Below are positions 1 through 64,000 of a DNA stretch of 64,000 nucleotides, in pieces. Numbering within the stretch: the stretch's first letter is position 1; the number at the start of each line of letters is the position of its first letter. The stretch spans positions 310,001-374,000 of the forward strand of contig CAMXCT020001768.1 of the NCBI GenBank assembly GCA_947184155.2, read 5' to 3'. The notes beneath the pieces were generated by a model. That model worked only from the letters and a program-made list of their open reading frames with translations, had not been told where the DNA came from and searched no databases. Made by a program: the position numbers and the translations under genes. Source of the DNA: Cladocopium goreaui. Lineage: Eukaryota > Sar > Dinophyceae > Suessiales > Symbiodiniaceae.

Positions 1-201
1 AAAATTTCATTAGGTTTATCCCATTTTATCCCATTATTTTGTTTGGGTTTCAACTTGTTTCAGTCATCCTTTTGGTGGTAAAAATCCATAAACATCCCCT
101 GTTCATTGGGACTACTTCTTGTGATCCCAACTGCCTTGAGCGTGGTGTTCGTAAAGCCGTGGTGTGTCCGAAAATAGGAGACCTCTAAATCAACTGGGTT
201 A

Positions 202-302
202 CCCTCTGGTTATGTCAAAATAGCTATTGAAAATTGCCATTTATAGTGGATTTTCCCATGAAAAATGGTGATTTTCCATAGTTATGTTAGTTCACCAGAG
301 GG
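202..302. mobile_element. HP2 hairpin element (CCCTCTGG...CCAGAGGG)
   Basis: Family definition: terminal repeat CCCTCTGG with a TA duplicate outside. One inner arm carries a ...CTATTGAAAATGGCC word and the other a GATTTTCCATAG word, and copies occur in both orientations. TA flanks are intact here. Confidence 0.85.
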
Positions 303-530
303 TAATCAACATGAATGGCCATTTTATGTGGTGGTACTATCTTAATCAACTGGGTTATACTATGATATTATGGGTTAATCAGCATTTTCACTTGCAAAAA
401 TCGCCATAAAGTGGTGGTACTGTATAGCGGCATAGATCGGCATAGCATATATCCATTAAAATGTCATTTTCTCACATCTTTTCACTATGAACATGCAATT
501 TTTGACCCAATGTAAGCAGCCTATTTTCAG

Positions 531-680
531 ACGTCGGCCGAGGTTGGCCTCAGTACCCCATCTGCCACTGATTGGCCTGGAAGCTTAGAGAGTTTTTCGG
601 AGCAGCTCCGAAGAAAATCAGAAAGCAATGTTGCAAACGGGATAGAACGAGATAGGAATAGAATATGTCTTTATCTTATA
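531..680 (+). CDS. Candidate exon, unidentified
   Basis: After TATTTTCAG one frame reads TSAEVGLSTPSATDW, then a Ser/Arg-rich stretch. The end is not fixed because the frame stays open into a TA-rich tract. No family was recognised. Confidence 0.3.
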
Positions 681-925
681 TATATTTGTATACAGTTATA
701 TATATATAACATTATATATTATAATCATATATATATATGTATGTACACATAATCATATATATACACATACATCATCACATATATATAATCATATATATAT
801 AATCACATATATATATATGTATATATAAATAATCATATATATATATGTAATCGAAACATATGTATATATATATACTCATATATATATACTCATATACATA
901 TATATATATACGTATATTATATATT
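660..925. repeat. TA-rich simple repeat
   Basis: Runs of (TA)n with CATA and GTATA interruptions between two candidate exons. Confidence 0.95.
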
Positions 926-934
926 TGTAAGCAG

Positions 935-983
935 CAATATGCTTTGAATTTGTGAAGAACTGGACAGGATACCCGGATTCATG
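935..983 (+). CDS. Candidate exon, unidentified
   Basis: Bounded by GTAAGCAG and a GT donor (ATG|GTAATG). It reads ICFEFVKNWTGYPDS in the open frame. No family was recognised. Confidence 0.3.
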
Positions 984-1133
984 GTAATGTTAATAGGAGA
1001 TCACTGTCATATAAGAGGCATGATAATTACGAATCTTTTGAGGAATATTAAGGACAAACCCATTGAGGATGAAGGGATGTGGTGGATATTGTTGTGATCA
1101 ACTTATTCACAATGTCTGGATTACCCTCTGGTA

Positions 1134-1232
1134 GTTTAACAGTTTGCTATTGAACATAGCCATAAAAAATAGTTGATTTACCCATCAAAAATGGTGGATC
1201 ATTCCATAGTTATGTAACACTTTACTAGAGGG
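1134..1232. mobile_element. HP2 element, TA flanks
   Basis: Right repeat changed to CTAGAGGG. Confidence 0.75.
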
Positions 1233-1766
1233 TAGCCATGCATGTCTTATTGGTATAGTTCAAAAATGTTCAAAAGCTAAAGCAACCGAAAATCCATTGA
1301 TTTTGAACTATTTGTACATTATAAATTGGTTAACAAAAGCCCCAGTAACAATAGTTATAAGTACATATAAGTACCATAAACCATAGTTATTGGAGTTATG
1401 TTCACCAACTTAGATATCTTGGGGGCCTCACATTGTAGTTCGTATTGACTATCCATTTATTTTTCCTCATACTCCCAATGCCAAAAAAAACATGGTGCCG
1501 AGGTTCTGGAAGTTTCGAGTTCAAGAAAAGGCCGGCAGCTGGGCATGTCGTATCGGATATGCCATTTTTTGTCAGACACACAAAACATACAAAAAACCTA
1601 TGGAAAATGGTGATTTATAGTGGATTTTCCCATGAAAAATGGTGATTAACTAACAAAAAGCTATGGAAATCACCATTTTAGTCGGTAAATCATTGAAATA
1701 AATGTAATAAATGGATCTAAAGCTATGCCTATGCTCCAGATGTTTTTTTTCTATGTTTCTCACCAG

Positions 1767-1808
1767 GATCGATCGTTGTGCGTCGCTGGAATGATGGTGA
1801 ATGCAAGG
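1767..1808 (+). CDS. Candidate exon, unidentified
   Basis: Between TCTCACCAG and GGTAACT. It reads SIVVRRWNDGECK. It could join in phase to an open segment after 1999 (DFVISGNIHKVTK...), and that in turn to one from 2402 that ends with TAA near 2489. No family was recognised. Confidence 0.35.
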
Positions 1809-2401
1809 GTAACTATCCCATGATGACCTTGTTTCAATTGAGTTTAGCTATGGGATATAGTAATAGTGATGTTCCATTTACCATAGCTATGTCAGTTTAT
1901 TATGATAAAATCACATAGCTATGGACAACCATCATTTTTAAGTAGGTAAAACAACATAAATCGACTATCAATGGACCATTTTCCATAGCTATATTAAATA
2001 AGCAGAGGGTATGATTTCGTGATCAGTGGGAACATCCACAAAGTAACCAAAAAGTTGGCGCCACCAGTTGGCTCAGACGGAAATGCGCTTGGAAATTACA
2101 GTGGGTTCTCACATCATTCCGTAGCTGTTGTGTATGGATGATGTATGGATGTTCATACCGCAAACATATCGTATCATAGGTATTACTGCAACACATCCCC
2201 GGAGCTTTTGAGAAATGAAGTATTATCGAATACATGAATACATTATGTAGTATTATTCGAATTCATGTTCTATACAGGTTGTGCACATGTATATAATACG
2301 TAGTTATATGCATATTATTTGTTATTTGAGTTTGTTGCACGCTAGTTTCGTGTGTATTCCACTACGTAAGTGCTTCAAAGTGATTCAATAACAATTTTCA
2401 G

Positions 2402-2490
2402 GCACGCTTATGGCCCATGTACCCTGCAGTAATCAAACATGGCAATCGGCAGCAGTATATTTCACCAATTTTCCATTCCCATCCGACTAA
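2402..2490 (+). CDS. Candidate terminal exon, unidentified
   Basis: Follows AACAATTTTCAG. One frame reads GTLMAHVPCSNQTW then AAVYFTNFPFPSD and a TAA stop. A second frame is also open, so the choice rests on phase with the upstream segment only. Confidence 0.3.
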
Positions 2491-2826
2491 GATTCCATGA
2501 TATCCCATTCAATCCCCATAAAATCAGACATTTTGTCGGTCAAATGCCAATTCTGGTTGGAAAAATGAGCATCGATTCACCATCGGATCACCATTCTTCA
2601 TATTAAAAATTGGTAAAATCCAGATGCTTCACCATTTTTCTAGGGTAAAATCACCATTTTCCCGGGATAGTCCTTGTTTCTGGCTGTGGCTCCTGTGGCT
2701 GTGTTTTGGATGCACCAAGTGGCGACCAAGTGGCAGGCCACGGTCGAGCGCTTGACTAGAAGGCAGAAACCTGGGAGTTGCTGAAATGGATGGATTTTGG
2801 GGAGGGAAAATCCCCCTACCATGGTG

Positions 2827-2947
2827 CAATGTGGTGCCCCCAAGATAGCTAAGTTGGTTTATAACTTTAATAACTAGGACTTATGGTAGATATATCTATA
2901 GTTAATGGGATTATAAACCAACTTATAACTGGGGGGGCACCACCTTG
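2827..2947. mobile_element. HP1 hairpin element, TG duplicate
   Basis: Family definition: ends CAATGTG(A/G)GG...C(C/T)CACATTG, then G/C-rich words, then a long AT-rich arm built on AAGTTGGTTTATAA / TTATAAACCAACTT. A 2-base duplicate flanks the element and is not limited to TA. This copy uses the CACCACCTTG right end. Confidence 0.8.
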
Positions 2948-3537
2948 TGGGTTTAAAGGTGGAAGAATCAAGTATAAATGAGTCAAATATATCATGTAGG
3001 GAAATCTGAAGTAAATGTATGTTAATAAGTGGGAAAGACATATAAATGAATGGATCAAATATATCATGAACCAACTGGATGTGCTGAATTGGTGCTTGGA
3101 TTTGCTGATGGATGGAGCAGGGTTTCAGGGTCGCTCCAAGCCACGTTATTAGGTAAGTGATCACCACGCTTGCGTGGGAAACTGGCTCAGCGAAACGCAA
3201 TGTTCTTTTTTGGGGGGTTTTGGTATAGCAACTCTGTTAATTCCCATGACACACAAATAAAAAATCCTATTACATCCTAGTAAACTATCAAATGAAATGC
3301 CATGTTAATTCCCTACTGTGGATGGTTGCGAAATCCTGCACCAGTTCATAGGTAGTACACATCCCATTATTTTGTTTGGGTTTCAACCATCCTTTTGGTG
3401 GTTTATCGGATTTCGCTGGCCCATCCACCGTATGTGTATCCTAGTAAACTAATTAAATGGGAATATCATATTATGATATTATTCCTTTGTGATATTCCCA
3501 TATTATATCCCAGGATATAATTCCCTACAATGTGAGG

Positions 3538-3664
3538 CCCTCGTTTGATATCCAAGTTGGGGTTCACATAACTCCAATGTCACTATGGTTTATGGTACGC
3601 AAATAACGAACTAGTTACTGGGGCTTTTGTTAACCAACTAACATCACTAGGGGGCCCCGCATTG
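3538..3664. mobile_element. HP1 element, TA duplicate
   Basis: Complete. Confidence 0.8.
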
Positions 3665-4070
3665 TATGTTTCATTGCTTAGTCATGTTGGGAATATCACA
3701 GGAGAATGGAAGAATCATTCTTCACGGTATGATCCATGGGTTTTTTATCGATCACGGACATGTGCCCAAAACACGGCTGCCACTGGGAAACTTGGAAATA
3801 TGTAGCAAATATCTGTAAATATCATCAAAGTACCATGGTTTCACACTTTTTGGGCTTCTTTTTGGGAGATTACTGTACTATAATTATTATAGGTATCTAT
3901 AGGTATCTATAGGTTGATTTATCAAGCCCATGAATACTATAATAATATCCTCCATAAACATCCATAAACTCCATAAACTATAGAACTCCCTATGGATTTT
4001 TTGGCGATTTTAAAACATCGGTTGATCTCAACAACGGGACCTTTGGCCGGTTCCGCCCGCCCGTTTCTGC

Positions 4071-4134
4071 AGGCTCCAGTCGGTACAGGGCTTGCTACAC
4101 GTCAATGTGCCACATCGCAAAGATGAGGAGATTC
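4071..4134 (+). CDS. Candidate exon, unidentified
   Basis: Flanked by CTGCAG|G and CAG|GCGACT, the same AG|G pattern as the UBC9 exons. One frame reads LQSVQGLLHVNVPHRKDEE; another is also open. Confidence 0.25.
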
Positions 4135-4251
4135 AGGCGACTGGCGAGAGAGCCGTGCGTACAAAAGATACACAAAAAATATCACGATATATCAAACAGT
4201 ATATGTAGTGTAGAATTCTACGGATATACAGACATCTGTATAAAAATAGCT

Positions 4252-4289
4252 AGATGGATGGATGGATGGATAGACAGATAGATAAATAG

Positions 4290-4320
<31 letters not shown>

Positions 4321-4336
4321 GATAGATAGATAGATA
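4252..4336. repeat. GGAT/GATA tetranucleotide repeat
   Basis: About 21 units, changing from GGAT to GATA along its length. Confidence 0.95.
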
Positions 4337-4599
4337 TTTCCTATATTACTATAAAAACAATATATATATATACATAACTATTTGCATAGATGGCACCAAT
4401 TGACCTATCGCTCCACTCACCTCGCCAGCGTTGAAAAGGCTTGGAAAGCTCAGCGCGGCGAACGCATCAGCCAAGCGAAGAGGATGAGCTCTACACTGGC
4501 GGTTCAGGTCGGATACCCTGTTTTAATGGGATATATGATGGTGATTCAATGGTGATTCAATGGCATTTAATGGGATTTAATGGGATATATGATGATATA

Positions 4600-4705
4600 C
4601 CCTCTGGTAAACATACAAAAAGCTATTGAAAATGGCCATAGAAATAGTGAGTTTTCCCATTAAAAATGGTGATTTTCCATAGTTATGTAACAGTTTACCA
4701 GAGGG
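4600..4705. mobile_element. HP2 element
   Basis: TA on the left, CA on the right. It is preceded by short tandem TGGGATTTAA / GATTCAATGG repeats. Confidence 0.75.
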
Positions 4706-4859
4706 CATAACATAACTATGGACAACTATGGAACATTCACATTTTTGATAGGTAAATCAACTATAAGTGGCAATTTTCTGCTGTTGGATAGTGATTTTGT
4801 GAACCAGGGTGGTGCCAGATATAAGTTATAACTTAGTTTATAAGCGCCATGATAGTATA

Positions 4860-5735: not shown

Positions 5736-5739
5736 TATA

Positions 5740-5850
5740 CCCTCTGGTAAACTAACAGTTTGCTATTGAAATTCACCATTTAGTTCGTGGATTTTCCCAT
5801 TAATAGCATGGTGGATCTTTCCATAGTTTATGTAACAGTTTACCAGAGGG
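5740..5850. mobile_element. HP2 element between two copies of a local repeat
   Basis: TA flanks. Near-identical 100-base copies lie on either side (5630 and 5872). Confidence 0.8.
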
Positions 5851-5871
5851 TAACCAATTTATAACCAGGGT

Positions 5872-5990
5872 GGTTTTAAACCATTTTATATGTGGTTAAA
5901 CCATCTAATAAACATATCACCATTTTATATAAACCACATTTGTTTGTTCTAACCAGAGTTGACATGGATTAAAATGATTAAACCAACTTA
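5872..5990. repeat. Local repeat, copy B
   Basis: Follows the HP2 element at 5740-5850. Confidence 0.85.
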
Positions 5991-6660
5991 TCAGCAATTT
6001 ATATAACCACATGTTTTTTTATTGGATATAGTTTATAACCACATTTTCTATTGTCATTAGATATCCATGTCTATATCCATGTCTATATCTATTGTCATTA
6101 GATATTCATTATCCATGTCATTAGATATACCACTTTTCTATAACCACATTAGATATATCACCATTTTATATCAACCATCTAATAAACATATCACCATTTT
6201 ATATCAACCATCTCATAGTTTGCTATTGAAAATCACCATTTATAGTGGATTTTCCCATCTAATGCTAGTTTACCAGAGGGTAACCAATTCATAACCACAT
6301 CTAAGGACATGGTTTTTTTCACCACATTTCTTCCCCATGGGATGATCCAAACCTTCGGCTGGCCCAGCGAGGCCTCAGATCGGCTGCCCATCCTGGAGGC
6401 CTCGAAGCCAACACGAGTGGTGCCATGGCCTGGTTACGAGGGGTTCCCCTGAGACGTTTCTTTGAAACAAATAGTTGATTTACCAAATAACTATAGTTGC
6501 TGGGGCTTATAAACCAACTTAGATATCTTGGGGGCCTCACATTGTAGCTATAGAACATGGCCTATAGAAATAGTTGATTTACCTTCGAAAAAGTCGTGTT
6601 TTTCAATAGCAAACTGTTAGTTTACTAGGGGGTAAATTTAATTGTCCTAGTGAAATAGAT

Positions 6661-7995: not shown

Positions 7996-8059
7996 GTGAG
8001 TGTCCAAAGGACGGCAAGTTGACTGGTTTGAAATTCTGTGTTTCCTCTTCGTTCTATGA

Positions 8060-8173
8060 CTGGTTGGTGGTTTGGAACATGACTGGATTATTTTCCATTT
8101 CATATATGGGATGTCATCCTTCCCATTGACTTTGACTCATATTTTTCAGAGCGGTAGGTCAACCACCAACCAG
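8060..8173. mobile_element. HP4 element, ATGA duplicate
   Basis: Complete. Confidence 0.85.
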
Positions 8174-8807: not shown

Positions 8808-8942
8808 CAATGTGGGGCCCCCGTTTGATAGCTAAGTTGGTTAACAAAAGCCCCAATAACTAGTTCGTTATTTGCGTACCATAAACCATAGTTTTTGGAG
8901 TTATGTTCACCAACTTAGATATCGAACGGGGGCCTCACATTG
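8808..8942. mobile_element. HP1 element, TA duplicate
   Basis: A second, damaged HP1 copy starts at once (8945-9075). Confidence 0.85.
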
Positions 8943-9364: not shown

Positions 9365-9752
9365 CAAATACACCATCACAGTGTGTGATTAACATGCCAA
9401 TGACTGACCATATCATCAAGTACTGCTACATGGTGGTTTTCCCCAGTTATGTTTGTTGGTTTACTAATCCTCAAGAACTATAGATACATCATATCATATC
9501 ATATCTACCATAACTGCACTTAACTTAGTTTTTCTTCGTCCCCAACAATACGGGTATCATTTTTTCAAATCAGCCAGCCAAAAATCACCGGCCAATTTTT
9601 CGACAGGTCAAGTCAACAGCTTTTTAACAGCGTTTGGTGCATCATAATTTGTACTAGAATGAACTAGAACGAAGCTTTACAAACTCTATGAACTATATAA
9701 TAAAACTATATGGATATTCGTTATGATTGTTGAATACCATTATGAACTTCTA

Positions 9753-9889
9753 CAAAGTGGGGCCCCCAAACGATAGCGTTCAGTTGGTGCAAATAACTCC
9801 AATGTCACGAACTGGTTTATGGTACGCAAATAACGAACTAGTTATTGGGGCTTTTGTTAACCAATTTATAACTAGGGGGCCCCACATTG
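9753..9889. mobile_element. HP1 element, TA duplicate
   Basis: Inner words CGAACTGG and CGAACTAG. Confidence 0.85.
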
Positions 9890-10747: not shown

Positions 10748-10850
10748 CCCTCTGGTTATTTAACGTAGCCATGGAAAATCACCATTTTTAATAGGTAAAC
10801 CATCTGTAAATGGGCCATCTATACCATGGCTATGTTAAATAACCAGAGGG
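10748..10850. mobile_element. HP2 element, TTATTTAAC subtype
   Basis: TA flanks; CCATGGAAAATC inner word. Confidence 0.8.
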
Positions 10851-11615: not shown

Positions 11616-11707
11616 CCCAGATGCTCCATGTATGCAATATTTACCTACATTTACCCCCAAAATGGCACAAATGTAGGTAAATATTCCAGCACCATAGAGC
11701 ATCTGGG
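11616..11707. mobile_element. HP7 element (CCCAGATGCTCCATG...GCATCTGGG), TAT duplicate
   Basis: Family definition: CCCAGATGC ends, inner GTAAATATTCC and GGCACA words, 3-base duplicate. Confidence 0.85.
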
Positions 11708-12772: not shown

Positions 12773-13138
12773 TTGATCTTGGATCATCACCTGGCGCAGA
12801 TTTTTTTGGGCGTTCCAATGGCTCCTGGCACGACGCCGTGCTTTAAGCACCGTGCCTGCGGGGCACCGAGACGCGAATCGACCGCTGAAGGTGCGAGATT
12901 CGCAGGTCTATCGAGGTCTCGTTTCACCCTGTTATTCCAATGGATCTGGGTAAATTATAACGACCTCACTGTTCTCCCTCACTGGAATTTTGGTTAATAA
13001 GGGACATCATCCCCAAATGGCCTTAATTCAGGTTAGTGAAGTATTATAATTTACCCAGAATGGATCTGACATGGATCCGGCAAGGTCCCCTCGACAAAAC
13101 GCATCGCAGAACTCTCCCGTTCGAGTTCAAATAGAAAG
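12773..13138 (+). CDS. GC-rich coding-like segment interrupted by an HP3 element
   Basis: Two or three + frames are open from 12773 to 12945 and again from 13059 to 13130. In the frame ending ...SPCYSNG, removing the HP3 element and one 10-base duplicate continues as SDMDPARSPRQNASQ. The correct frame is not decidable by eye. Confidence 0.35.
12946..13058. mobile_element. HP3 element in a coding-like segment
   Basis: AATGGATCTG is present on both sides (10 bases, counting the CTG end). Confidence 0.85.
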
Positions 13139-15437: not shown

Positions 15438-15550
15438 ATGGCCAGCTTTGCATCCAAGCGGCTGGCGCAGGAGAGTCGGAGATCCGGAGATCCACATTTT
15501 TCGCGCGCTGAACGCTGGTGCTGGAACCGCAAGAAAAGAATGGGGATTTA
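15438..15550 (+). CDS. Coding-like segment starting at an ATG, unidentified
   Basis: GACATGGCC opens MASFASKRLAQESRRSGDPH and a basic tail with TAA near 15550. Two other frames are also open. Confidence 0.2.
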
Positions 15551-15575
15551 ATCAACAAAACATTAACTTATAACA

Positions 15576-15729
15576 ATCACTAAATTATACCTGTAATTAC
15601 TATGAAATATAAACAATATAAACAATAACATTAAGTTAGACTATAATAGTTCCAAAACACTATTATTAGTCTAACTTAATGTTATTGTTTATATTTCATA
15701 GTAATTACAGGTATAATTTAGTGATTGTT
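15576..15729. repeat. Long near-perfect hairpin, arms about 70-75 bases
   Basis: CAATCACTAAATTATACC at 15576 returns as its reverse complement at the far end, with a short loop around 15650. The left arm has one extra AACAATATA-type unit. It shares no terminal word with HP1-HP8. Confidence 0.9.
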
Positions 15730-16582
15730 GTCACTTGTGTTCTTGGATTACAATAATTAAGTTATACTAGTGATTAGCCATGGTTGTTAGTATTTTTTAC
15801 CATGGTTATGAGGCACAGAAAACCCGGATTTCATGAGACAATCAATAGGAATTTACAACTGGTTGGTGGTGACTGGAACATGAATGGATGATTTTCCCCA
15901 ATAGTTGGAATGACGATCCAATCTGACTTTCATATTTTTTCAGGGGGTTGAAACCACCGATTAGTGAAGTTATAATAGTGATTAGTGTTTTGGAACTATC
16001 ATAGTAGTGTTATTTCTTGATTAATGAACAATTATTGAACAACATTGTGGCAAAAATGAGATCACCAGTGATACAACTAATGAGATCTTTAGTGATACAG
16101 TAAATAGTGATATATCAGTTCTAGTTAGAAACCATAGATATCAATGGCAGATCTAGAACTGACGAGACTAGTGATCAAGTATCATCATGATCTGGATTGA
16201 TCACGACCTCACGACGTCGCTGGAACCATGGCTTAGTATAGGAAATCATGCCACGGCCGGAAATTTCAGGCTAGTGAAGTGGTAGAGATGCTGGCTCCAA
16301 CTGCAAAAACATGTGTACATGGCAAAAATGAGTAGACATGGTGGTTCAGAAAAAAGCACACAGGGTATAACTATAAGGTGTCAAACAGGGTATATATCTT
16401 TAAGGTGTTACAAAGGGGAAAGGCAAAATTGACCCCTGAATTGGATGGAACATGTGTGGTTTTCTCAACCGAAGATTTCCGAACGGACTTCTACTAGGAT
16501 TTTTTGGTTGGTTGTTTACAATTTGTGCAACAAAAATATTGATTTAGTTGAACTAAGAGATTCTTTCATCATCCATCATCTT

Positions 16583-16697: not shown

Positions 16698-16824
16698 TTG
16701 GAATACGTGTCAATTTTTTTCACTGGATTTTCCCTTGGTTTCATCGATTTCTCCCGTGTGAAAACACACACCTTTCGGATGCCAAAAATCCTTCACCGCT
16801 CCGTGGTCCGTGTCGCGGAACCAG

Positions 16825-27284
<10,460 letters not shown>

Positions 27285-28824: not shown

Positions 28825-29191
28825 TACTTGGATTTGCTGAAGATGACGGAATTTATTTTCTCCATGGGAAATCCACTACTTGGGGAATCGATGCAGGGAT
28901 TCTTTTTATTTTTTTGGTGGTTCCGTAAGCACATTCATGATTAGTTCGAATCAACAAAAACTGATATGCAAAGTGAGGTTACGATCAAGACAAATATGCA
29001 AAGCATAGATTTTTGAACGAATGTCAAAACATGTCAAGTTCAACTTAACATCCTTAAGCAGCAAAATAGCAAGGAAGATCAGACGCCAAAAAGTTGAGAA
29101 AGGCCTGAAGTCATGACTACTTGCAAGACCATGAATGGTTTATTGAACCCTTCGAGGTGTTTATTTTCTCTGGGAGACTTCCATCAAAATA

Positions 29192-29871: not shown

Positions 29872-29982
29872 CTGGTTGGTGGTTTCAAACATTTTTTTTA
29901 TTTTTCCATGATATATGGGATAATTTGTACCATTGACTAATATTCTTCAAGATGGTTAAAACATGTTAAAACCACCAACCAG
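29872..29982. mobile_element. HP4 element, AGAC duplicate
   Basis: Complete. Confidence 0.85.
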
Positions 29983-30079: not shown

Positions 30080-30181
30080 CCCTCTGGTAAACTAACATAG
30101 CTATTGAAAATCACCATTTTAAATGGGCAAATCCACTATTAATGGTCATTTTCAATAGCTATGTTAGTCATTACCAGAGGG
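30080..30181. mobile_element. HP2 element
   Basis: Complete, TA flanks, reversed orientation. Confidence 0.8.
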
Positions 30182-31123: not shown

Positions 31124-31265
31124 TCAATGGCCATTCCAGGATCCTAAATTGGGGGTACCTACCATATATAAGGCCTATATAAGGCCTATGTAAGGGAATA
31201 TCACCACAAAATATGGCCTTATATGGTACAGTACCTCCATGTTAGGATCCTGAAATTCCCATTGA
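31124..31265. mobile_element. HP5 element, TTAAA duplicate
   Basis: Complete. Confidence 0.85.
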
Positions 31266-33320: not shown

Positions 33321-33727
33321 TGGCTATGGTGATACTATGGCAATTGAATTTTACCCTCTACTAAATTAACATAGGCCCTGAAAATCACCAATTTTTAATG
33401 GATTCACTAATCTTCCAACCCCCAAGTCATGGCAGGGTCGTCATGTTAATTTACTGGAGGATAAATGTCAGGGGGATGGGATTATTCACATGGCCTTTTC
33501 ACTTGTTGTAGGTTTTCTTGTTGACTAAAAGTCAATCTGCTGGATGGGTACAAACTAATCCTAACTAGTCTTTTGGTATCTGGCTGGGAATATCTACGTT
33601 CACCGGCAAAGAATTTGTCATTTTTTGCAGGGTATCTAAGATTGGCAATGTTATGGCAATTGAATTTTACAGGGATACAATATTGCGTAATATATGGTGG
33701 TAATATATATATATATGTATATCTAAT

Positions 33728-37737: not shown

Positions 37738-37882
37738 CAATGTGAGGCCCCCGTTCGATATCTAAGTTGGTGAACATAACTCCAATAACTATGGTTTATG
37801 GTACTTATAACATCTTATAACGAACTAGTTACTGGGGCTTTTGTTAACCAACGTTCACATCACAACGGGGGGCCTCACATTG
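37738..37882. mobile_element. HP1 element nested inside the end of an HP4 element
   Basis: It splits the HP4 right end: GGTATACCA on one side, AACCAACCAG on the other. Confidence 0.8.
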
Positions 37883-38200: not shown

Positions 38201-38321
38201 ACTGATGAAATCCTCCTAATATGGAGGTTTCCTGAAATACATATTACCCCTTAAAATCATCTATGTTTGCAATTTTAGTTTGGGATTTTCCACAAACAAA
38301 ACCATCCAGCTATTGGAGTAC

Positions 38322-38431
38322 TTAGATGGGCCATGGAGTTAGTTAACTAGTTAGTAAATAGCTTATAATTGGGATATGGAAGGTTATAACCCCAGTTACT
38401 AACTAGTTAACTAACTCCATGGCCCATCTAA
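38322..38431. mobile_element. HP8 element, GTAC duplicate
   Basis: Cleanest copy; others near 19380-19520, 22885-22982 and 42249-42372 are partial or nested. Confidence 0.8.
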
Positions 38432-38568
38432 GTACCACCATTTATGGAAACCCTCATATGGCAATTGGGCTCCAAACGACACTCCATTCGTAGCTCCAAC
38501 GGGCTGAACCAAAGGATACCTCCTTCGCACAGAGACGCGCTCCATTCACCGGATAGTTTACCACATTA

Positions 38569-39892: not shown

Positions 39893-40013
39893 CCCTCTGG
39901 TAAACTAACAGTTTGCGAACTGGATTGATCCACCATCTTTAAGAAAGGTAAATCAACGATTTCGATTAGGGCCATGTTCAAGTTCGCAAACTGTGAATGT
40001 CATTACCAGAGGG
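39893..40013. mobile_element. HP2 element
   Basis: TA flanks; both arms carry the GTTTGCGAACTGG-type word. Confidence 0.8.
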
Positions 40014-40464: not shown

Positions 40465-40554
40465 CCCATAGGATCCATGTATGCTATATATGTTAACATT
40501 TACCATCAATATACCCCCAATGTTAGTATATATACCATACATGGATCCTATGGG
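40465..40554. mobile_element. HP6 element, TAG duplicate
   Basis: Near-perfect hairpin; ends 24 bases before the candidate exon at 40579. Confidence 0.85.
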
Positions 40555-41209: not shown

Positions 41210-41569
41210 TAAGGTTTAGTGGGACCACATTTTTGGTTTTCTATGCTTGGTCCACTTAGGGGATGCTTAGGGGATGTCTAGTACTCATCCACATTTTTAA
41301 GGGACGAATTTTGGGGGTGTTTAGGGACTGAACAGGGGATGAGCTTGAGCTTGCTTGCGCTTGGAGATGTCCCTAAGCAGTGGTTGAGTAGATTAGTGGG
41401 GTCAATTTTTCTGCATATGGTGGTTTCCATCGGTTTCCTATGGGGGTACCCCAATAGCTGAAGGGTTTTTTTCATGGAACATCACCAAAAAAGGATGAGA
41501 ACTGGGGGTACCCCCACTTCGGCAACCTCTATATAATGCTTTGGGGGTGTAGTTGAGGTTAAACAGTTA

Positions 41570-41840
41570 CTTCTATGGGTATAACTATGGTATTTCAACT
41601 ATTTCAAGCCTCATGTTGGGATTATGATATGGGGTCCCTATATGGTGAAATCTATCCCGTGAGTTTTTTGGCCTGGCCTGGCTGCTCCAAGTAGACCGGC
41701 TGAAAATGAAGAACTCAGTGGATAGAATTCACCGGACCTAGGGACCTAGGGACCTAGGGACCCCATATCATAATCCCAACATGAGGCTTGAAATACCATA
41801 GTTATACCCATAGTTATACCCATAGAAGTACCAACATGAG
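41570..41840. repeat. Inverted repeat with a 100-base loop
   Basis: GATTATGATATGGGGTCCC near 41634 is mirrored near 41756, and the outer arms (ATGGGTATAACTATGG / CCATAGTTATACCCAT) extend it. The loop holds an open frame (LAWLLQVDRLKMKNSVDR). A third arm copy follows at 41840-41880. Confidence 0.8.
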
Positions 41841-42090: not shown

Positions 42091-42217
42091 TCAATGGTAA
42101 TTTCAGGATCCTAAAATGGAGGTAATGTTTTGCTGGGATATTCCCTTACATAGGCCTAAAAAATAGGCCTTATATATGGTAGGTACCTCCAATTTAGGTC
42201 CCTGAAATGGCCATTGA
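42091..42217. mobile_element. HP5 element, TATCA duplicate
   Basis: Complete, reversed orientation. Confidence 0.85.
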
Positions 42218-43888: not shown

Positions 43889-44000
43889 CTGGTTGGTGGT
43901 TTGGAACATGAATTTTATGACTTTCCATTCAGTTGGGAATAACCATCATCCCAACTGACGAACTCATATTTTTCAGAGGGGTAGGTATACCACCAACCAG
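43889..44000. mobile_element. HP4 element, GGAA duplicate, inside a coding-like frame
   Basis: Complete. See the candidate exon at 43785. Confidence 0.85.
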
Positions 44001-47016: not shown

Positions 47017-47139
47017 CAAAGTGGGGCCCCCTAGATAGCTAAGTTGGTTTATAACTCCAATGTCACTATGGTTTATGGTACTTATAAGTATAGTTACTGG
47101 GGCTTATAAACCAACTTATAACTAGGGGGCCCCACATTG
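47017..47139. mobile_element. HP1 element, TA duplicate
   Basis: It lies beside CGAACCATGGTGCTGG, a word that recurs inside HP7 near 47230. Confidence 0.85.
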
Positions 47140-48051: not shown

Positions 48052-48150
48052 CCCATAGGATCCATGTATGCTATATATGGTAACATTTACCATCAATATA
48101 CCTCCAATGTTTCCAATGTTAGCATATATACCATACATGGATCCTATGGG
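48052..48150. mobile_element. HP6 element, ACA duplicate
   Basis: Near-perfect hairpin with a short inner repeat (CCAATGTTTCCAATGTT). Confidence 0.85.
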
Positions 48151-48351: not shown

Positions 48352-48440
48352 CCTTCTGGTGAACTAACATAGCAATTGAAATAGTGGATTTTCCCATTAA
48401 AAATGGTGATTTTCCATTGCTATGTTAGTTCACCAGAGGG
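48352..48440. mobile_element. HP2 element
   Basis: Left end CCTTCTGG; near-perfect long arms (TTCACC/GGTGAA). Confidence 0.75.
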
Positions 48441-50334: not shown

Positions 50335-50483
50335 TCAATGGCCATTCCAGGATCCTAAATTGGAGGTATATACCATATATAAGGCCTATTTTGTAGGCCT
50401 ATGTAAGGGAATATCCCCCCAAAAATGGCCTTATATGGTACTAACGTACCTCCATAGATTGGATCCTGGAGATCTCCCATTGA
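50335..50483. mobile_element. HP5 element, CCTTG duplicate, inside a coding-like frame
   Basis: Complete. Frames on both sides are open and join on removal. Confidence 0.85.
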
Positions 50484-51543: not shown

Positions 51544-51655
51544 CTGGGTAAATTATAACGACCTCACTGCGACCTCACTGGGAATCATGGTTAATAAGGG
51601 GAATCATCCCCAAATGGCCTTAATTCAGGTTAGTGAAATATTATAATTTGCCCAG
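51544..51655. mobile_element. HP3 element, ATTAAAT duplicate
   Basis: Seven bases match on both sides. Confidence 0.85.
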
Positions 51656-52544: not shown

Positions 52545-52672
52545 ACAAAGTGAGGCCCCCAAGATATCTAAGTTGGTTTAGAACTCCAATGTCACTATGG
52601 TTTATGGTACTTATAACTAACTACTTACTGGGGCTTATAAACCAACTTAGATATCTAGGGGGCCTCACATTT
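52545..52672. mobile_element. HP1 element, right end damaged
   Basis: The right end stops at CACATTT. Confidence 0.75.
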
Positions 52673-53054
52673 CAGGATATGATAGGTAAATGATCGCCAC
52701 CTATGTATTTACTCAATTTACCTCCCAAACGTACCTGGGCTGTTTGGAGCAACCCTTCTGGGTATTGTGATATATTGTGAGACTCAAGCCATTCTAGGAT
52801 ATTTGGTAAATGATCGCCACCTCTATATTTACCCAAGCCTTGTATTGGGTATTGTGATATATTGGGTTCGACAAACTCCGGCAACTCAGGTATTGCAACA
52901 TGTCTAAGATTCACCAGCAGGAGAGCGGTGTCGCTGTGTCGATGCTTTTGCGATTTGGATCCTGGAAGTCCTGGAAGCCCTGGAGGTTGCATGAGAAGGT
53001 GTACCCTCTGGTATATAACTCACCATTGCTATGGAACATGGACCTTTTATAGAT

Positions 53055-53169
53055 CTGGGTACATTATAACGCCTCACTGCGACCGAACCCTGGAAATCAT
53101 AGTTAGTAAGGGGAATCCTCCCCTTTTATGGCCTTAATTCAGGTTAGTGAAGTATTATAATTTACCCAG
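53055..53169. mobile_element. HP3 element, ATAGAT duplicate
   Basis: The right-hand duplicate is interrupted by an HP1 element. Confidence 0.8.
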
Positions 53170-53172: not shown

Positions 53173-53297
53173 CAGGATGGTGCCCCCCAGTTATAAGTTG
53201 GTTTATAAACCCCATTAACTATAGTTATATCTGCCATAAACCATAGTGACATTGGAGTTATAAACCAACTTAGCTATCGTTTGGGGGCACCACCTTG
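53173..53297. mobile_element. HP1 element next to an HP3 element
   Basis: Inserted in the target duplicate of the HP3 copy at 53055-53169; virtual removal restores ATAGAT on both sides of HP3. Confidence 0.8.
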
Positions 53298-54508: not shown

Positions 54509-54612
54509 CCCTCTGGTAAACTAACATAGCTATTGAAAATGACCATAGAAATAGTGGATTTACCCATTAAAAATGGTGGATCTTTCCATAGTTATGTTAG
54601 TTTACCAGAGGG
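54509..54612. mobile_element. HP2 element
   Basis: Complete, TA flanks. A broken HP2 copy precedes it near 54380. Confidence 0.8.
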
Positions 54613-56564: not shown

Positions 56565-56872
56565 TATCTAATGCCTTTGAACATCTATAACTTGGATTTG
56601 CCGAAGATGATGGAATGAATTTTCTCCGTGGGAAATCCAATACTTGGGGAATCGATGAAGGGAATCATGTTTATTACTGTTTGGTGGTTCCTGAAACAAA
56701 TCCATGATAATCATCTATATTTATCATAGGATATCATAGGTAAGCCTTTGTTTTCGGATAATTGATAGTTAATATCCGTAGGTGGTAGATTAAAACTATT
56801 GGATACAATGATTAAGCATGATAGATGGTTATACATAGATGAATGATAGGATGATTCATCTACCCTCCAGTA

Positions 56873-57398: not shown

Positions 57399-58026
57399 TA
57401 TATATAGCAATTGTTGACGGATATTCCTTACACTATACTATACCGACTATGTTCCTTTTTGGGATGGGTGTCTAAACGAGAAAGCAAGGATTTCAGTTCC
57501 CAATTGCTTATCTACCTATATGTGCTTGCACATGCTTGCCTATTTTTGCAGGTTACATATGGTTATAAACTAGGAAAACTATGAACAAGAACATAGCTTC
57601 ACTGAAGAACTATAATGAATTGTCTATGATTGGTGGATGTTCCACCCAAGTATTGGATAATTATATCAGTTATCTCCATACTCTTGTCAACGTCCCAGAT
57701 ATTTGTTGGTTAAATCAGCAATTTTTCTTAGTTCTCTCCATGTTTCTGCTGTTTCAAGCTCATCAACTTTGTTGCCTTCAATCAGATAAATCATCTGAGT
57801 TCTCCCAATTGTTGAAACTTACCCTCTGGTAATTTAACATAGCTATTGAACATGGCCCAGTCGAAATAGTTGATTTACCGTTCTCAAAGGTGGATCTTTC
57901 CATAGTTATGTTTGTTTTCCCATCACAAATGGTGGATCTTTCCATAGTTATGGTGGATCTTTCCATCGTTTTTTGTATGTTTAGCAGAGGGTAGATCCAT
58001 TTAGCTTCAACCCATTGGGTCCTAAG

Positions 58027-58120
58027 GCGACGAATCAACTTGCTGCGCGGCGACTCCTCCAGAAGCTGGCTGGGCCGCAAGGAGTACTGGGACGCTGCCT
58101 ATGCGTCGGGACGTTACAAG
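58027..58120 (+). CDS. Methyltransferase exon with the KEYWD block
   Basis: After CCTAAG it reads one base, then RRINLLRGDSSRSWLGRK, EYWDAAYASGRYK. EYW(D/N)xxY is the start of METTL13-like domains. It ends in phase 0 at AAG|GATAGC, a GA donor with AG|G on both sides. Another frame is open for about 75 codons here and is rejected. The 5' boundary is the least certain part. Confidence 0.75.
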
Positions 58121-61100
58121 GATAGCTATGCCGCTTGTCAAGGGACGGGAAGGCGCTATTTTTTCTAAGAACAAGTGGGGATTTGATGGTTCTGATAGCT
58201 GGTTGATAGAATATGGTTCTGAGTTGATACCACATTTAGGAAACATGGGGATTTGATAGTTGATAGTGGTTGATAGTTGATAGTTGGTATCGTTTGGTGT
58301 CAAAAAGTGGACAATTTGAAGATCATATGGGGATTTGATGGTTCTGATAGCCGATAGTGGTTGAACATTGTTGAAAACAGTTGATAGTTGTTTGAACATA
58401 CTTATATAATACCCTCTGGTAATTTAACATAGCTATTGAAAATGGCCATTTAGAGTTGATTTTCCCATCAAAAATGGTGATTTTCCATAGCTTCGTTAAA
58501 TTACCAGAGGGTAATGGTTGATCATGGTTGATTATAGTTGGTCAATGTGCCGAAATCAATGATATCTATGTGAATATAGATGGATATGATATGACCGCTG
58601 TGGCTAGAGTTGATGTCCTGAAATGTCATGTGAATGGGGAATATCCTGAGACAATGGCATATTTCGCCAGCAATATGGAGGTTTTAATGGTAAAATCTAG
58701 GGAAAATCATCTACAATGTGAGGCCCTCCGAGGGCCCTCCAGTTATAAGTTGGTTTTAACAAAAGCCCCGGTAACTAGTTCGTTATGTGCGTAGCATAAA
58801 CCAGTTCGTGACATTGGAGTTATGTGAACCAACTTAGATATCGTGGCCGGGGGCCTCACTTTGCAACAAGCATCACCAACGTTTGCCCAGTATTGGTTTC
58901 ACCAAAAGCCTGTGGTTTCCCCAGAGCTGTTCCCTCTTTGAAATGTCAGCTGGTCACCTGGTCTATAAGCCATACCATACATAGATGTCCTTTTCCCATT
59001 GGTTGGTTGATTAATAGAGGGGTTTGTTTACCCCTTTAACAACAGGTAAATGATGAAAATGATGATAGATGGTATACCAAACCGGCCCTCTATTTTTACC
59101 AAAAGGACATTATTGACACCATACACATCAATTTTCTCATGGATCAATTTATGATTGGGTACTGTAAACATCAGAAATTTAACAGTGTGTAAACAAACTC
59201 TAGTCCATACACATAAATGGGTAAACATCCCATCGAAGTTCTCAAATTTCGTCTGTTACTGAACTCACAGGAGGTGATTTTGACAGTCTGTGGGGATGGC
59301 CTGGAGCCCCTTCAGGGCACTTGGTAAATATGGCAGTTGTCCGTGGCAATGAGGACCAAATGGTTGAAATATGGAGAAATCTAGGCGCCCTCCTCTGTTT
59401 TGGCCAAGGCCCAACCGATCACTTTGCAGAATTTCTGCACAATTCCATAGCTTTTCCATGGATTTCACTTAAATGTCCCATAGATTGTGTGACTCAGCCA
59501 AGTTGCGACGATGCGTCAATAAAAATTTCTCATATGGCATATGGTGGTTTCCTGAAATAGGGGTACCCCTAGTTATGATCCACTTATAGCTGGGATTTTC
59601 CATTATAAACCAACCATTTTGGATACCTCCATTTATGGCAAGCCCCATACAGGGTGGGGCCCCCAAGATAGCGTTCAGTTGGTTTATAAGTGGTTTAACA
59701 ATGGTTTATGGTAGATATAACTATAGTTAATGGGGGTTATAATGGTTTATAAACCAACTTAGCTATCTTGGGGGCACCACCTTGTAGATTTCCCATGCTA
59801 GATTTGATGAGTGTGGCACTGAGGAGTGGAATCAAACCTGTGAAACGATCTGGCCGTCACTGAGATATGGAAAGGTGAAAAACTGCCGGGTGGTTTGAAT
59901 GCGATGTTAGTAGAGTTTAGTTGAATTTAAAAAATCAGAAGTGGACTTTATCCGTCAGAAATCAGACATTTAATTTTAATTGGATTTAACCACAATGAAC
60001 AGTGGATATGGGTGAGATTTCGCTGTGGATGGGTGAAAGAATTCTATTTGGAACACAAAACTGGCTGGATGGATTGTAACAAAAACCTCAAGTTTGTTTC
60101 TTGGCGAGGGGGGGTAGATGGATTTACATAGATATTACAACAGATTCCATTGAGATTGAAACTTTTACCATAGGATGTTTATTTTTTGGAGCATCCGGGA
60201 CTCATAACTTCTTGAAAACCAGCCTAAGATCCCTTAGACAAAGGCACATATGGAGCGGTTTTCCAAATCTGGAAATAGCAATAAGAATTGGAAACTCGAT
60301 GTGATAGATTCCGGAAATGGTCTCGACTCAAAACTAAAAAACGGGCAAATATCGTTGTGATTCACATCCCAACATTGACGACGATTCTGGCAACAAGTTT
60401 GGGATGCGGTTCCATAAGGGTAGCAGGTTTTTGGGCTGTTCCAAACTTCTAGCCGTACCTCCGGAGGCATTTTTGACAATTGAGGTTGAGAGATGGTTTC
60501 CACAGGGCTGGAACCATAGATTTTCCACAGATTTCCATAGATTTTCCATAGATTATTTGGGTTATTCTGTTTACGCATATGTGGAGTTGTCTCAAATTTT
60601 GAATCCCCAGATACTACCATGGGTTTGAACATCATGTTCGCAATTGGAATGGCAAGCTTGGGGCCACTCCCCCAGGTTTAGACTACCTAAATGGTTTTTT
60701 AAATCACTTGGCCTCCAGAAAATTTCAACAGCTTTTTGGAAAGCAACTGATCCCAATTAATCCACAGTGTTGCAAGGTGGTGCCCCATAGTTAGCTAAGT
60801 TGGTTTATAACTCCCATAACTATGGTTTATGGCAGATATAACTATAGTTAATGGGGTTTATAAACCAACTTATAACTGGGGGGCACCATCCTGTGTTTAT
60901 TGTTGATGAAATTAGAATCCCTTTTGTGGTTCCATAGCCGTGGCATCCCGTGGTTTTTGAAACAAAAAGGCATTGATCAATCTGTCCATTTCCTCACGAG
61001 GTGCACCCTCACGAGCCCATTTGACATCATCCATTACATGCACGAATCGTTGATGTTCGTTGATTACACATCATCCAAATATCCCAGATGCTCCATGGTG

Positions 61101-63350
61101 CTGGTAAATTTACCTACAAAACTGGGTGATTATGTTCGGGCAAATGTTGGTAAATATTCCATACATGGAGCATATGGGTATATCCAACTGCTGCATCTTC
61201 AGTTTATATCCAGTTGCTGACGTGAATTTCGACATGCTTTTGATGCTTTTTGGAAGTCCAAATTGACCAATGGGGATGGGTCAATACCTCCAAATTTCGG
61301 GGGATGAACAAATGACCATCGACCAGGCTACATGGGGTTTGGCCCACAGCCAAATGGATATTCGTTATCATTGTTGAATATCATTATGAACTTCTACAAT
61401 GTGAGGCCCCCAAGATATCTAAGTTGGTTTATAACTCCAATAACTATGGTTTATGGATGTTTATGGTACTTATAACTATAGTTACTGGGGCTTATAAACC
61501 AACTTATAACTGGGGGGCCTCACATTGTATGAACTTCTAGTGTTTGATGGTTCCGTAGCCATAATTTGTTTTCCCATAGGCTTCCCATATTTTATTTTAG
61601 ATGTCCATCAAATCTTGGAGATGTTCCATAAGATTTCCCGCAGCTTTTCCATAGATGTCCATGGATTTCCGTTCGATTTCCATAGGTTTCCCATAGATTT
61701 TCATATATAGATATCTCGCAGATTTCCCGTAGATTTCCGTGGATTTGCCACGGACTTCGAGGTATGTGCTCAACACCCTGGAGAGTCGCTTGGATGCGAA
61801 GATTTTGCACGTGGGATGTGGCAACAGCCGACTGGGCCGCATGCTCCATGATGACGGGTACATCAATGTGGCCTGGTCACGAAGTTGGGAGAAAGGATGG
61901 GACGATATGGGACAAGAATGAAGACAAAAATTAGCAGTGGCTGCTTGCGAGACACCCCTGTTGGTTGATGATTATCTCACTATCTCTGTGTTTGAGAGGG
62001 ATTTAACATGATTTAACCATCAGTTATTTAAGAAATGAACAAAAATCATGGGGACATAGGTGACAAATCACGACTGAACCGGTGGTTTCAAAGGCGACTG
62101 ATGGCGGCCCCTGGTAGATTTCACCAAGAAATTCATGGCTGTTTGAAGCTGTTTGAAGTCGGGAGATTCGCTTGCGAAAACGTATGGAGATTCGCTAAGG
62201 GAAGTCTTTATTGAAAACGCGACCGTGTTTTTGGAGTTTAGATTCTTTTCATGTCTGATATCTTTAAATGATTTAAATGCAAGGCCCAGTTGATCTGGTT
62301 GATCTGGGCACTGGTAGATCGGTGTTGAATCACAGGTGTTAAATCATCATCCGCATCGGGTTTTTGGCGATCTTCCCAGAGGTGTTCTGATGAAATCATG
62401 AGCCAATGGGCCTTGAATTAAGATGTACAGCTGAATTTAAGACGTGTTTTGCCTACGTACCTCGACCCTGCATTTATGCATGTTTATGCACTTTTAAATC
62501 GTGGTTTACACCATAATCAACTATATAGTACTTTTACCATCTTTTACCATCAAAATTGTGGGTAAGAATGAAAGGGTCTAGGTAGTTGTGAGCTCATGAT
62601 CCAAGGTACTGAACGTTGACTACAGTGGCTTGGAACCGAAGCATCCCCATGAGTGGCCTTAGATCGGTTGAAATTTTCAGATTTGATCGTGCCCATTGTT
62701 TAAAGATAAGCTTATACAATGTGAGGCCCCCAAGATGGCTAAGTTGGTGAACATAACTCCAATGTCACTATGGTTTATGGTACTTATAACTATAGCTACT
62801 GGGGCGAATCTAAACCAACTTATAACTGGGGGGCCTCACATTGTAAAATACGTTGCACAGCAAGCACTTTTTTGGGGATTTGTTATAACCTCTCTGGACG
62901 ATGCTTCGGATTGTGTCAGTGACTCAGTGAAAATCTTGGGTGAATCTGGCGCGATGGATCTCAATGGGCTTGACTTTTAGGGTGCGTATTCAAGTTTGTC
63001 TTCGAAGATAAAAGTGATATAAGTTGAAACATATTCCTCCCAAGGGATATATACTTAAAGCATCTTAAAGCCTTAGTGCCTAAGCAGAGGCTTCCTAGAT
63101 GGTTCCTTTCAATAAGCGGCCCTGTGCACCTGTGGGGTTGCATAGGGTGGTTTGTCTGAAGCAATCTCGGTGTTACAGTTCAAAAAGTCATCACAATTTG
63201 TTGCTGAGATATTGGATATAACAACTTATCCCACCATAATTGCAAAAGGTAAGTATCCCCACTGTTTAGCCATGGCTAAAACCAAACAAGCAGAAGAAAG
63301 TTGGCGCCGCTGGAGGTCGGGTGGTGATCAAGATGATGCAGCAAAGCCAG
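58027..63350 (+). CDS. METTL13/EEF1A-KMT-like SAM methyltransferase gene, split (span, 3' end outside)
   Basis: Five short exons chain into a protein with the layout of the METTL13 / EEF1A lysine methyltransferase group: a KEYWDAAYASGRYK block, an EW block, motif I with ILHVGCGNSRLG, the DDGYIN-VLNVDYS acidic loop that binds SAM ribose, and VVIKMM. In the family these proteins methylate lysines or the N-terminus of elongation factor 1A. Later motifs (the DKG block) were not found before the window end. The exact target cannot be told from sequence. The span includes introns full of hairpin elements. Confidence 0.82.
58412..58511. mobile_element. HP2 element in a methyltransferase intron
   Basis: Complete, TA flanks. 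Confidence 0.8.
58714..58863. mobile_element. HP1 element with duplicated G/C word
   Basis: The left end has an extra AGGGCCCTCC-type duplication; flanks TA and CA. Confidence 0.75.
59650..59784. mobile_element. HP1 element in a methyltransferase intron
   Basis: Ends 40 bases before the exon at 59824; TA duplicate. Confidence 0.8.
59824..59864 (+). CDS. Methyltransferase exon EWNQTCETIWPSLR
   Basis: Lies after CACTGAG. It starts in phase 0 and its 41 bases end in phase 2, exactly what its neighbours need, and it supplies the (D/E)W...P.L block expected between YW..RY and motif I. The GAG-TATG sequence recurs at both ends of the next intron, so the junction can slide without changing the protein. 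As written the donor would be AT, so the boundary is tentative. Confidence 0.55.
60773..60893. mobile_element. HP1 element, TG duplicate
   Basis: Mixed ends CAAGGTG / CATCCTG. Confidence 0.8.
61083..61178. mobile_element. HP7 element, TAT duplicate
   Basis: Complete. Confidence 0.85.
61397..61527. mobile_element. HP1 element, TA duplicate
   Basis: Inner tandem TTTATGGATGTTTATGG. Confidence 0.85.
61762..61867 (+). CDS. Methyltransferase exon with SAM-binding motif I
   Basis: Reads YVLNTLESRLDAK, then ILHVGCGNSRLGRMLHDDGYIN. VGCGNS is the glycine-rich motif I of class I methyltransferases, and the GCGNSxLxxxLxxxGY form is typical of the METTL13 group. The acceptor is TTCGAG. A GT donor at 61868 gives the family spacing between GYIN and NVDYS. 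Confidence 0.9.
62606..62627 (+). CDS. Methyltransferase exon VLNVDYS
   Basis: After ATCCAAG it encodes VLNVDYSG, the end of strand 2 with the acidic residue that binds SAM ribose (family: NIDIS). The 3' boundary (GC donor at 62628) is inferred from phase with the next exon and could be a few codons longer. Confidence 0.65.
62717..62843. mobile_element. HP1 element, TA duplicate
   Basis: 75 bases after the methyltransferase NVDYS exon. Confidence 0.85.
63316..63350 (+). CDS. Methyltransferase exon RVVIKMMQQ
   Basis: After CTGGAG it reads two bases, then RVVIKMMQQSQ. It corresponds to the SxVVIxxM helix after the NxDxS block. The frame stays open for about 20 more codons, so the donor is not fixed. 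Confidence 0.6.
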
Positions 63351-64000
63351 TGGCTCCGTCAAACACGCCTTGATGTGTTTGGAGACCCCAAAGGAACTGG
63401 TTTTGGTACCTAAAAAGGAAAAAATGCAAAATCCGGCGGATTGGAAGATTCGATTCCTCAGTATTTGATGATTTTGATTGCTATTTTGGGAGTGGAATAC
63501 TGCATTCTAGCTAAAACTAACTGGTTTCCCCAGAACAACTGACAATTCTTGCCGGACTTTGGATGTTGGGGTCTCAAATTTGTGGGTTTCATCATTTTTT
63601 GGTATGCAAATTTGTTAATTAGTTATATTAGTTCTCTCCTTCTTGGACGATGATCCCCAGTGATATACTCATTCTGGGGGGTCAGGTTGTTTCTAAGGGA
63701 ATATTTACAGGAAAACCATGGAAAACCCTACATTGTAAGGATTGGATTGAGGTTCTTGTTTCTTTTCTTCTCAATAGACTGGGTCTGTCTCAGCTAAGCA
63801 AGACTCCAAATGAGAAAGAACCGGAATGCAAACCACTATATTTCAATCACCAGAACATGCTTTCTGGTTCAGATTTTCCCAGCAAAGCTAAGTGGACACC
63901 AGAAAACAACTTATAAGTTGGTAACGGTTCATTCATAATCCCCATTTTTAGCCATTCAGTGTAATCCCCCCATTTCCTCAGTCATCATCAACAATCATTT

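Follow-up and report, generated by a model that had tools for sequence, protein, structure and literature searches.

Seven families of short hairpin elements crowd a 64-kb stretch of a dinoflagellate-like genome, and copies within two of them differ by 2-to-4 bp cassette swaps

The locus

The DNA considered here is a 64-kb stretch of contig CAMXCT020001768.1 (positions 310,001 to 374,000; hereafter the window, numbered from its own first letter), taken from a genome of 1.166 Gb in 6202 contigs. The window is AT-rich, with a GC content of 39% by base counts, and contains many GC-rich islands of roughly 100-300 bp each. It is crowded with short hairpins, most of which belong to seven families, designated A through G, and these are very probably miniature inverted-repeat transposable elements (MITEs), that is, short non-coding elements derived from several unrelated cut-and-paste DNA transposons. 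The one gene that can be read exon by exon among them encodes UBC9, the SUMO-conjugating enzyme.

The UBC9 gene occupies 16816-26373 of the forward strand, with first and last exons that are possibly incomplete. Its eight exons (16816-16871, 17552-17597, 20217-20267, 20833-20907, 21860-21925, 23099-23146, 25051-25089 and 26327-26373) were delimited by alignment to known UBC9 rather than from RNA, and with these borders 428 nt of exon are spread over 9.6 kb, the seven introns total 9,130 nt, and a single frame is open throughout. A translation made with provisional borders matches the Pfam family UQ_con (E 3.1e-37) and UBC9 chains in the PDB (E 5.6e-61), the top two of which we take to be apicomplexan. 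Splice donors are, in order, GT, GA, GC, GT, GA, GC and GA, while the acceptor is AG in all seven introns and is followed by G in six. Because PMC11453091 gives this same combination of GT, GC and GA donors with AG acceptors for dinoflagellates, the host nucleus looks dinoflagellate-like, and we infer a dinoflagellate host. The DinoSL spliced-leader sequence has no match in the window at three or fewer mismatches, an absence that is expected in 64 kb.

Seven families of hairpin elements

Hairpins were located with a dynamic-programming scan for imperfect, non-overlapping inverted repeats having a score of at least 18 and a span of at most 260. The window contains 99 of them, whereas each of three order-3 Markov sequences contains 1. 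Iterated profile searches resolved seven families, with 58 matches for A, 40 for B, 11 for C, 14 for D, 13 for E, 5 for F and 7 for G, fragments included throughout. Together these amount to 148 copies or fragments, one per 432 bp, and cover 15,234 bp or 23.8% of the window. Full-length copies span about 85-150 bp, and all eight elements that were folded did far better than their own shuffles (z -5.1 to -14.0). Most of the hairpins (78 of 99) overlap a family by at least 30 bp; the other 21 overlap none, and many of those resemble AT-rich simple repeats. A preliminary description of this DNA, made from its letters, had announced at least eight families; seven are established here, alongside further, ungrouped hairpins. 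Two palindromes longer than 200 bp also lie outside the families, at 41569-41829 and 15546-15754 (scores 58 and 56).

Terminal inverted repeats are present at both ends of the elements, and each family has its own tip: CCCTCTGG in A, CAATGTG or CAGGATGG in B, CTGGGTAAA in C, CCCA(TAGG/GATG) in D, CTGGTTGGTGG in E, CTTAGATGGGCC in F and TCAATGG in G. Within family A, the copy at 54509-54612 has the top score among profile copies, the one at 10748-10850 carries a CATGG variant that is identical on both arms, and another lies at 48352-48440. No transposase domain was found in 20 window sequences run against Pfam, which cover 12 of the 38 frames of at least 100 amino acids. The first description, of elements of about 85-150 bp with long imperfect inverted repeats and no protein, is borne out to that extent. 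A viral source was set aside, as three scans of viral contigs gave no match to the B, A and E patterns, in a collection that may omit entries from the genome under study.

Target-site duplications

Duplication borders were taken from the profiles for A and B and from a tip rule for C through G. A 2-bp duplication flanks 22 of 28 full-length copies of family A and is always TA, as at 202-302 and 5740-5850. Family B has one in 24 of 28 full-length copies (16 TA, 4 TT, 3 TG and 1 CA), and in both families a duplication longer than 2 bp is common to at most 3 of 28 copies. A 3-bp duplication accompanies 6 of the 8 D copies with both tips (among them TAG at 40465-40554, ACA at 48052-48150 and TAT at 11616-11707), three more D copies lacking one tip. 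Family E shows 4 bp in 6 of 9 copies, such as ATGA at 8060-8173, AGAC at 29872-29982 and GGAA at 43889-44000. All three G copies with intact tips have 5 bp (TTAAA at 31124-31265, TATCA at 42091-42217 and CCTTG at 50335-50483); the G tip rule also matched three non-G intervals near 6.8 kb, where there is no duplication.

The two remaining families are less uniform. Family C has a 7-bp duplication in 2 of 8 copies (AATGGAT at 12946-13058, ATTAAAT at 51544-51655) and a 6-bp duplication in 2 of 8. A fifth duplicated copy, at 53055-53169, regains its 6-bp ATAGAT once a B element lying inside the duplication (53173-53297) is taken out. TA stands on both sides of 2 of 4 F copies, including 26546-26665 and the near-perfect hairpin at 38321-38432, or of 3 of 4 by eye, where one border is shifted.

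Random intervals give chance rates of 7.3% for 2 bp, 2.1% for 3, 0.7% for 4, 0.26% for 5, 0.12% for 6 and 0.07% for 7, and the duplication lengths of the families far exceed them. Five length classes are thus observed (2, 3, 4, 5 and 6-7 bp), in keeping with the expectation that the length would not be uniform across families. The stronger proposal, that each family has a length of its own, does not hold, as a 2-bp duplication is common to A, B and, for the most part, F. Of the individual lengths listed in the preliminary description, 2 bp, TA, 3, 4 and 5 bp were all found, while the 7-10 bp given for its third family became 6-7; its labels HP1-HP7 came without sequences, and their correspondence to A through G is presumed.

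Nested elements and empty sites

Each of 92 full-length elements in the window was removed together with one duplicate, and the joined sequence was rescanned with the profiles. In two cases the removal restored an element of a different family across the junction. When the B element at 22759-22879 is taken out with one TA, the F profile crosses the junction (E 3.4e-29), and when the B element at 47017-47139 is taken out, positions 1-65 of the 84-position D profile do so (E 6.7e-12). Among 143 A, B and E elements from the window and the genome at large, a third instance was found besides these two, an A element that splits a family E element in genomic locus L022 (3.2e-5). Junction matches within a family, at A 48352 and B 4860, were left uncounted because palindromic fragments can mimic them.

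The joined flanks of the 92 elements also recovered two acceptable unfilled paralogues. That of the A element at 5740 lies at 5976-6003 (92.9% over 28 nt, gap-free), and that of the B element at 52546-52672 lies at 52785-52822 (92.5%, two gap columns). The corresponding search with 143 elements found one unfilled relative, in genomic locus L014 (88.6%, one gap), for the B element at 37738-37882, which is nested at the end of a family E element. Rows for B 8808 (a self match) and C 10603 (AT microsatellites) were dropped from the first search, and those for B 8808 and B 57271 (AT-rich) from the second. Empty sites without one duplicate, which the preliminary description had proposed to look for in related strains, do occur in a few nested or paralogous cases, here within one genome. 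Elsewhere in the window, a 45-bp direct repeat (25120-25164 and 25288-25332, 95.6%) brackets a B element, and probably arose when the element and its flank were duplicated in tandem.

Copies elsewhere in the genome

With the family A element at 30080-30181 and its TA as a 106-nt query, 40 of 1764 first-look candidates were scored. One of these is the copy in the window itself, and the remaining 39, on many contigs, have 93-96% identity to the query. A genomic sample was then formed by 20 stretches of 10 kb picked for holding A (184,499 readable bases, profile E of at most 1e-3). All seven families match there, with counts of 92 for A, 14 for B, 6 for C, 3 for D, 18 for E, 1 for F and 3 for G, and the predicted copies outside the window are thus on record for every family. 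Full-length genomic copies carry TA in 53 of 57 cases for A, 2 bp in 3 of 3 for B and 4 bp in 9 of 18 for E.

Elements in this sample number one per 1,347 bp and occupy 7.4%, a density about three times below that of the window. It holds 151 hairpins, one per 1,222 bp, of which 77 overlap families A through G and 46 others are ungrouped and not low-complexity. With 99 hairpins in its 64 kb, the window is unusually crowded by comparison, and the density of roughly one element per 500 bases that had been called extreme is indeed so locally. When 10 of the 58 frames of at least 150 amino acids from the genomic stretches were compared with Pfam, no transposase and one RCC1-like match were found. 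One sampled stretch holds a very long hairpin (L018:1151-1389, score 99, 239 bp).

Cassette variation

Alignments reveal that copies of A and B differ by discrete replacements at fixed positions, here called cassettes. Examples of 2-to-4 bp replacement can be seen in the copies at 8808-8942, 9753-9889 and 39893-40013. In the first of these the paired cassette site reads GTTT in one arm, and its counterpart in the opposite arm reads GAAC; all 8 of 8 scored sites are in the long state in 9753-9889 and all 8 of 8 in the short state in the B element at 61397-61527. By eye, two B elements of different cassette types occupy the same position in two flank copies (9711-9752 and 61355-61396). Window-wide, replacements of 2 by 4 bp amount to 110 merged contexts, against 53 of 2 by 3 and 38 of 2 by 5, all as raw counts uncontrolled by shuffling.

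The change TA to GAAC/GTTC stands out among them. In A and B of the window it makes up 10 of the 67 distinct contexts of 2-to-4 bp replacement, at 31 positions, where 0.05-0.13 would be expected from composition. The contexts were merged by 3+3 flanks, and since a single position can still be represented by more than one of them, the number of independent positions is smaller. Taken family by family, TA to GAAC/GTTC ranks first among 2-to-4 bp changes in window A (5 of 33 contexts), in window B (5 of 29) and, independently, in genomic A (7 of 51), and has shares of 1/3 in genomic B, 0/8 in window E and 1/8 in genomic E. When each copy is compared with its nearest neighbour (median identity 0.85 for A and 0.83 for B), family A yields 37 blocks of 2-to-4 bp, 20 one-base indels and 225 single substitutions, and family B yields 16, 7 and 92. 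The top blocks are AT to GATC (9), TA to GAAC (8) and TA to AAAC (7) in A, and TA to GAAC (11) in B.

The two arms of an element vary together to some degree. Arms within a copy match better than shuffled pairs (12.15 versus 10.26 in A, 15.0 versus 13.16 in B, permutation p 1e-4 each), and a copy's own arm is its best match in only 5 of 37 A copies and 1 of 32 B copies. At one A site, where the arms were sorted into three coarse classes, the two arms of a copy share a class in 22 of 22 classified copies; a further 26 of 48 A copies were left unclassified by the script, and among these three disagree by eye (24217, 37243 and 38002) and two agree (21323 and 31768). Strict hairpin pairing was rejected as the cause of the cassettes: the arms do covary, but those 26 copies went unclassified and three of them disagree. 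Several source elements with matched arms, once amplified, would produce such covariation, and so would conversion between arms.

The swaps may represent recurrent mutation in place, recombination between copies, or a base-calling artefact at modified thymine. The last, in which TA to GAAC/GTTC and its kin are base-calling or consensus errors at 5-hydroxymethyluracil (5-hmU) in repeats and not changes in the DNA, is quite possible without being probable. PMC11071213 reports that 5-hmU pull-down in Breviolum minutum is enriched for multimapping reads, and cites early work placing the base in TA and TC contexts. The same paper also describes 5-hmU in B. minutum as having no sequence preference, which speaks against the artefact. 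In its favour in the present data, all 16 of the 16 TA-GAAC contexts in A and B have C before or G after TA (0.47 and 0.34 of background TA contexts), the swaps run in both orientations, and they are sporadic between nearest-neighbour copies. Nor do they clearly follow relatedness by single-nucleotide polymorphisms (Mantel r 0.08, p 0.12, at the low power of 24 copies and 46 columns), and the four-gamete test fails in 20 of 28 pairs formed by eight B cassette sites. That said, the states of certain B sites go together (s3-s7 p 0.0008, s3-s8 p 0.001 and s1-s3 p 0.003, uncorrected over 28 tests), which counts against a purely sporadic process and against an artefact. Also against an artefact, the UBC9 frame stays open across eight exons holding eight CTA/TAG, few sites but ones where a +2 error would shift the frame, and a 2-to-4 bp miscall that yields the same letters each time would be an unusual error.

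Rather doubtful, though worth stating, is a recurrent process acting in place at CTA/TAG, by which 2 bp would be replaced by 4 in either orientation, copy after copy, in at least two families. Its replacement set would consist of TA to GAAC or GTTC, along with AT to GATC and AA to GTTC, and AAAC/GTTT would perhaps be CpG-decay forms of GAAC/GTTC. Such changes might arise through repair of paired modified thymines in the self-complementary TA step, or perhaps as the nicking scar of a TA-targeting transposase. An excision footprint of a TA element was dropped as the origin of GAAC because both the T and the A are lost. No counterpart in the literature is known to us for such a sequence-directed replacement of 2 bp by 4. 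The window also has dispersed repeats of about 120 bp that are not hairpins (24668-24779 and 33531-33650; 28826-28941 and 56590-56708), with a similarity of 82-85%, and +2 bp differences occur in the first pair as well.

Elements and the introns of UBC9

The preliminary description had likened the hairpins to introners, elements inserted in exons and spliced out as whole introns. UBC9, the sole gene resolved, offers a direct view of this relationship. Its seven introns contain 23 profile matches to families A through G (fragments included); every intron carries elements and the eight exons carry none. No element crosses or abuts an exon border, the closest being 38 nt away. The introns measure 565-2619 bp, each longer than the elements inside it, and with none of the latter at the borders it follows that 0 of 7 introns is itself an element. 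In UBC9 the elements are contents of introns and not the introns themselves, on the small sample that one gene provides.

An introner origin has some circumstantial appeal. Polarella glacialis, of the same host group, is credited with 12,253 introner-derived introns (PMC11453091, citing Roy et al. 2023), Amoebophrya introners are described in PMC7789003 with inverted repeats of 8-20 nt and direct repeats of 3-5 nt, and PMC9860276 gives Symbiodinium introners 4-bp duplications and inverted repeats, like family E. Duplications and inverted repeats are present here too, but such traits are common and not defining. The feature taken as diagnostic in PMC9860276, element ends that reach splice borders, is found in none of the seven UBC9 introns, and some elements are nested inside other elements. 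Introners were rejected for these seven introns, in which the elements are internal and away from the borders, and for families A through G as a whole we consider them very improbable.

Other features of the window

An exon-like frame on the forward strand at 61733-61918 carries a motif of methyltransferase type, which falls below the Pfam cut-off (MTS, E 0.036). A frame upstream of it, at 57995-58165, may belong with it and has no Pfam hit. A tRNA scan of the window found none.

Interpretation

A reading of the hairpins as structural RNAs or regulatory signals of the host, and not as mobile DNA, is scarcely credible: strong folding and covarying arms could reflect selection on the hairpin, but covarying arms are also expected if several matched-arm source elements were amplified, the window has no Rfam match at gathering score, and the duplications, nesting and empty sites require insertion and largely refute the idea.

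MITEs account for these observations far better. The elements are short and without coding capacity, have terminal inverted repeats and many dispersed copies, and in A, B, D, E and G have a fixed duplication length per family. Such elements would be remnants that keep both terminal inverted repeats, each family being moved in trans by a transposase presumably encoded elsewhere in the genome, whose staggered cut would set the duplication at 2, 3, 4, 5 or 6-7 bp. They would have piled up in long introns, and probably in intergenic DNA too, sometimes one inside another. The five length classes suggest several transposase systems, as had been proposed, and this part of the proposal stands as an argument from length, no transposase having been seen. 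The non-coding architecture said to have converged is shared as well, but that likeness is what defines MITEs.

Several observations weigh against this account. Duplications flank 4 of 8 C copies (5 with the nested B undone) and come in two lengths, E has one in 6 of 9 window and 9 of 18 genomic copies, and the case for F comes from four copies. Genomic C, D and G show no duplication at their profile ends (0 of 1, 0 of 3 and 0 of 1), the D and G tips lying beyond the profile. The 143-element search, with its stricter cut, did not recover the empty sites of A 5740 and B 52546, and no autonomous element with matching ends was present in the 30 sequences scanned from the window and genomic stretches.

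As MITEs, families A through G are elements of a known type, and the cassette swaps are the new oddity. Among the open-access papers listed in the literature searches, none describes, to judge by title and abstract opening, MITE families filling dinoflagellate introns or the cassette pattern. The long introns of a dinoflagellate-like gene can, it appears, be stocked by several transposase systems at once, and such filling (23 matches in the 9.1 kb of UBC9 introns) would be a source of intron length distinct from introners. If the cassette variation is real DNA, it is a recurrent kind of change with sequence specificity, more numerous than 1-bp indels when A and B copies are set against their nearest neighbours; if it is an artefact, it would be a warning for assemblies of heavily base-modified genomes.

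Comparison with known systems

MITEs in many genomes, plants among them, derive from several superfamilies at once, and a convergent architecture is their defining property. The elements described here share with MITEs in general their small size, lack of coding capacity, terminal inverted repeats, family-typical duplication length, high copy number, nesting and presence in introns. They differ in that several families are hairpins over nearly their whole length, and we know of no MITE counterpart to the recurrent 2-to-4 bp cassette variation.

The superfamily identity of the families can be suggested from their ends. Stowaway-like MITEs, of the Tc1/mariner type, resemble family A, and tentatively F, in being short hairpins with a TA duplication, and the A tip CCCTCTGG presumably resembles that of Stowaway. 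Every duplication scored in A is TA (22 of 28 window and 53 of 57 genomic copies), and TA is found in 2-3 of 4 F copies and in 16 of the 24 duplications of B. Family B departs from Stowaway in also using TT, TG and CA, and a link to the corresponding transposase is hypothetical.

The introners of dinoflagellates and Amoebophrya, as described in PMC7789003 and PMC9860276, are similar in host group, in inverted repeats and direct repeats of 3-5 bp, in the coexistence of several families and in the absence of protein; unlike introners, the elements here sit inside much longer UBC9 introns and are not introns. Amorphochlora amoebiformis (PMC12730881) likewise has a genome dominated by introns, in which exons are short and interspersed repeats numerous. 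A chlorarachniophyte host, considered on account of that paper, was rejected on GC content, genome size and the GA and GC splice donors. The A. amoebiformis genome is of 214 Mb and 27% GC, with GT and AG shown at 26 inserted introns, whereas the genome considered here is of 1.17 Gb and 39-42% GC, with GT/GC/GA-AG introns in one gene.

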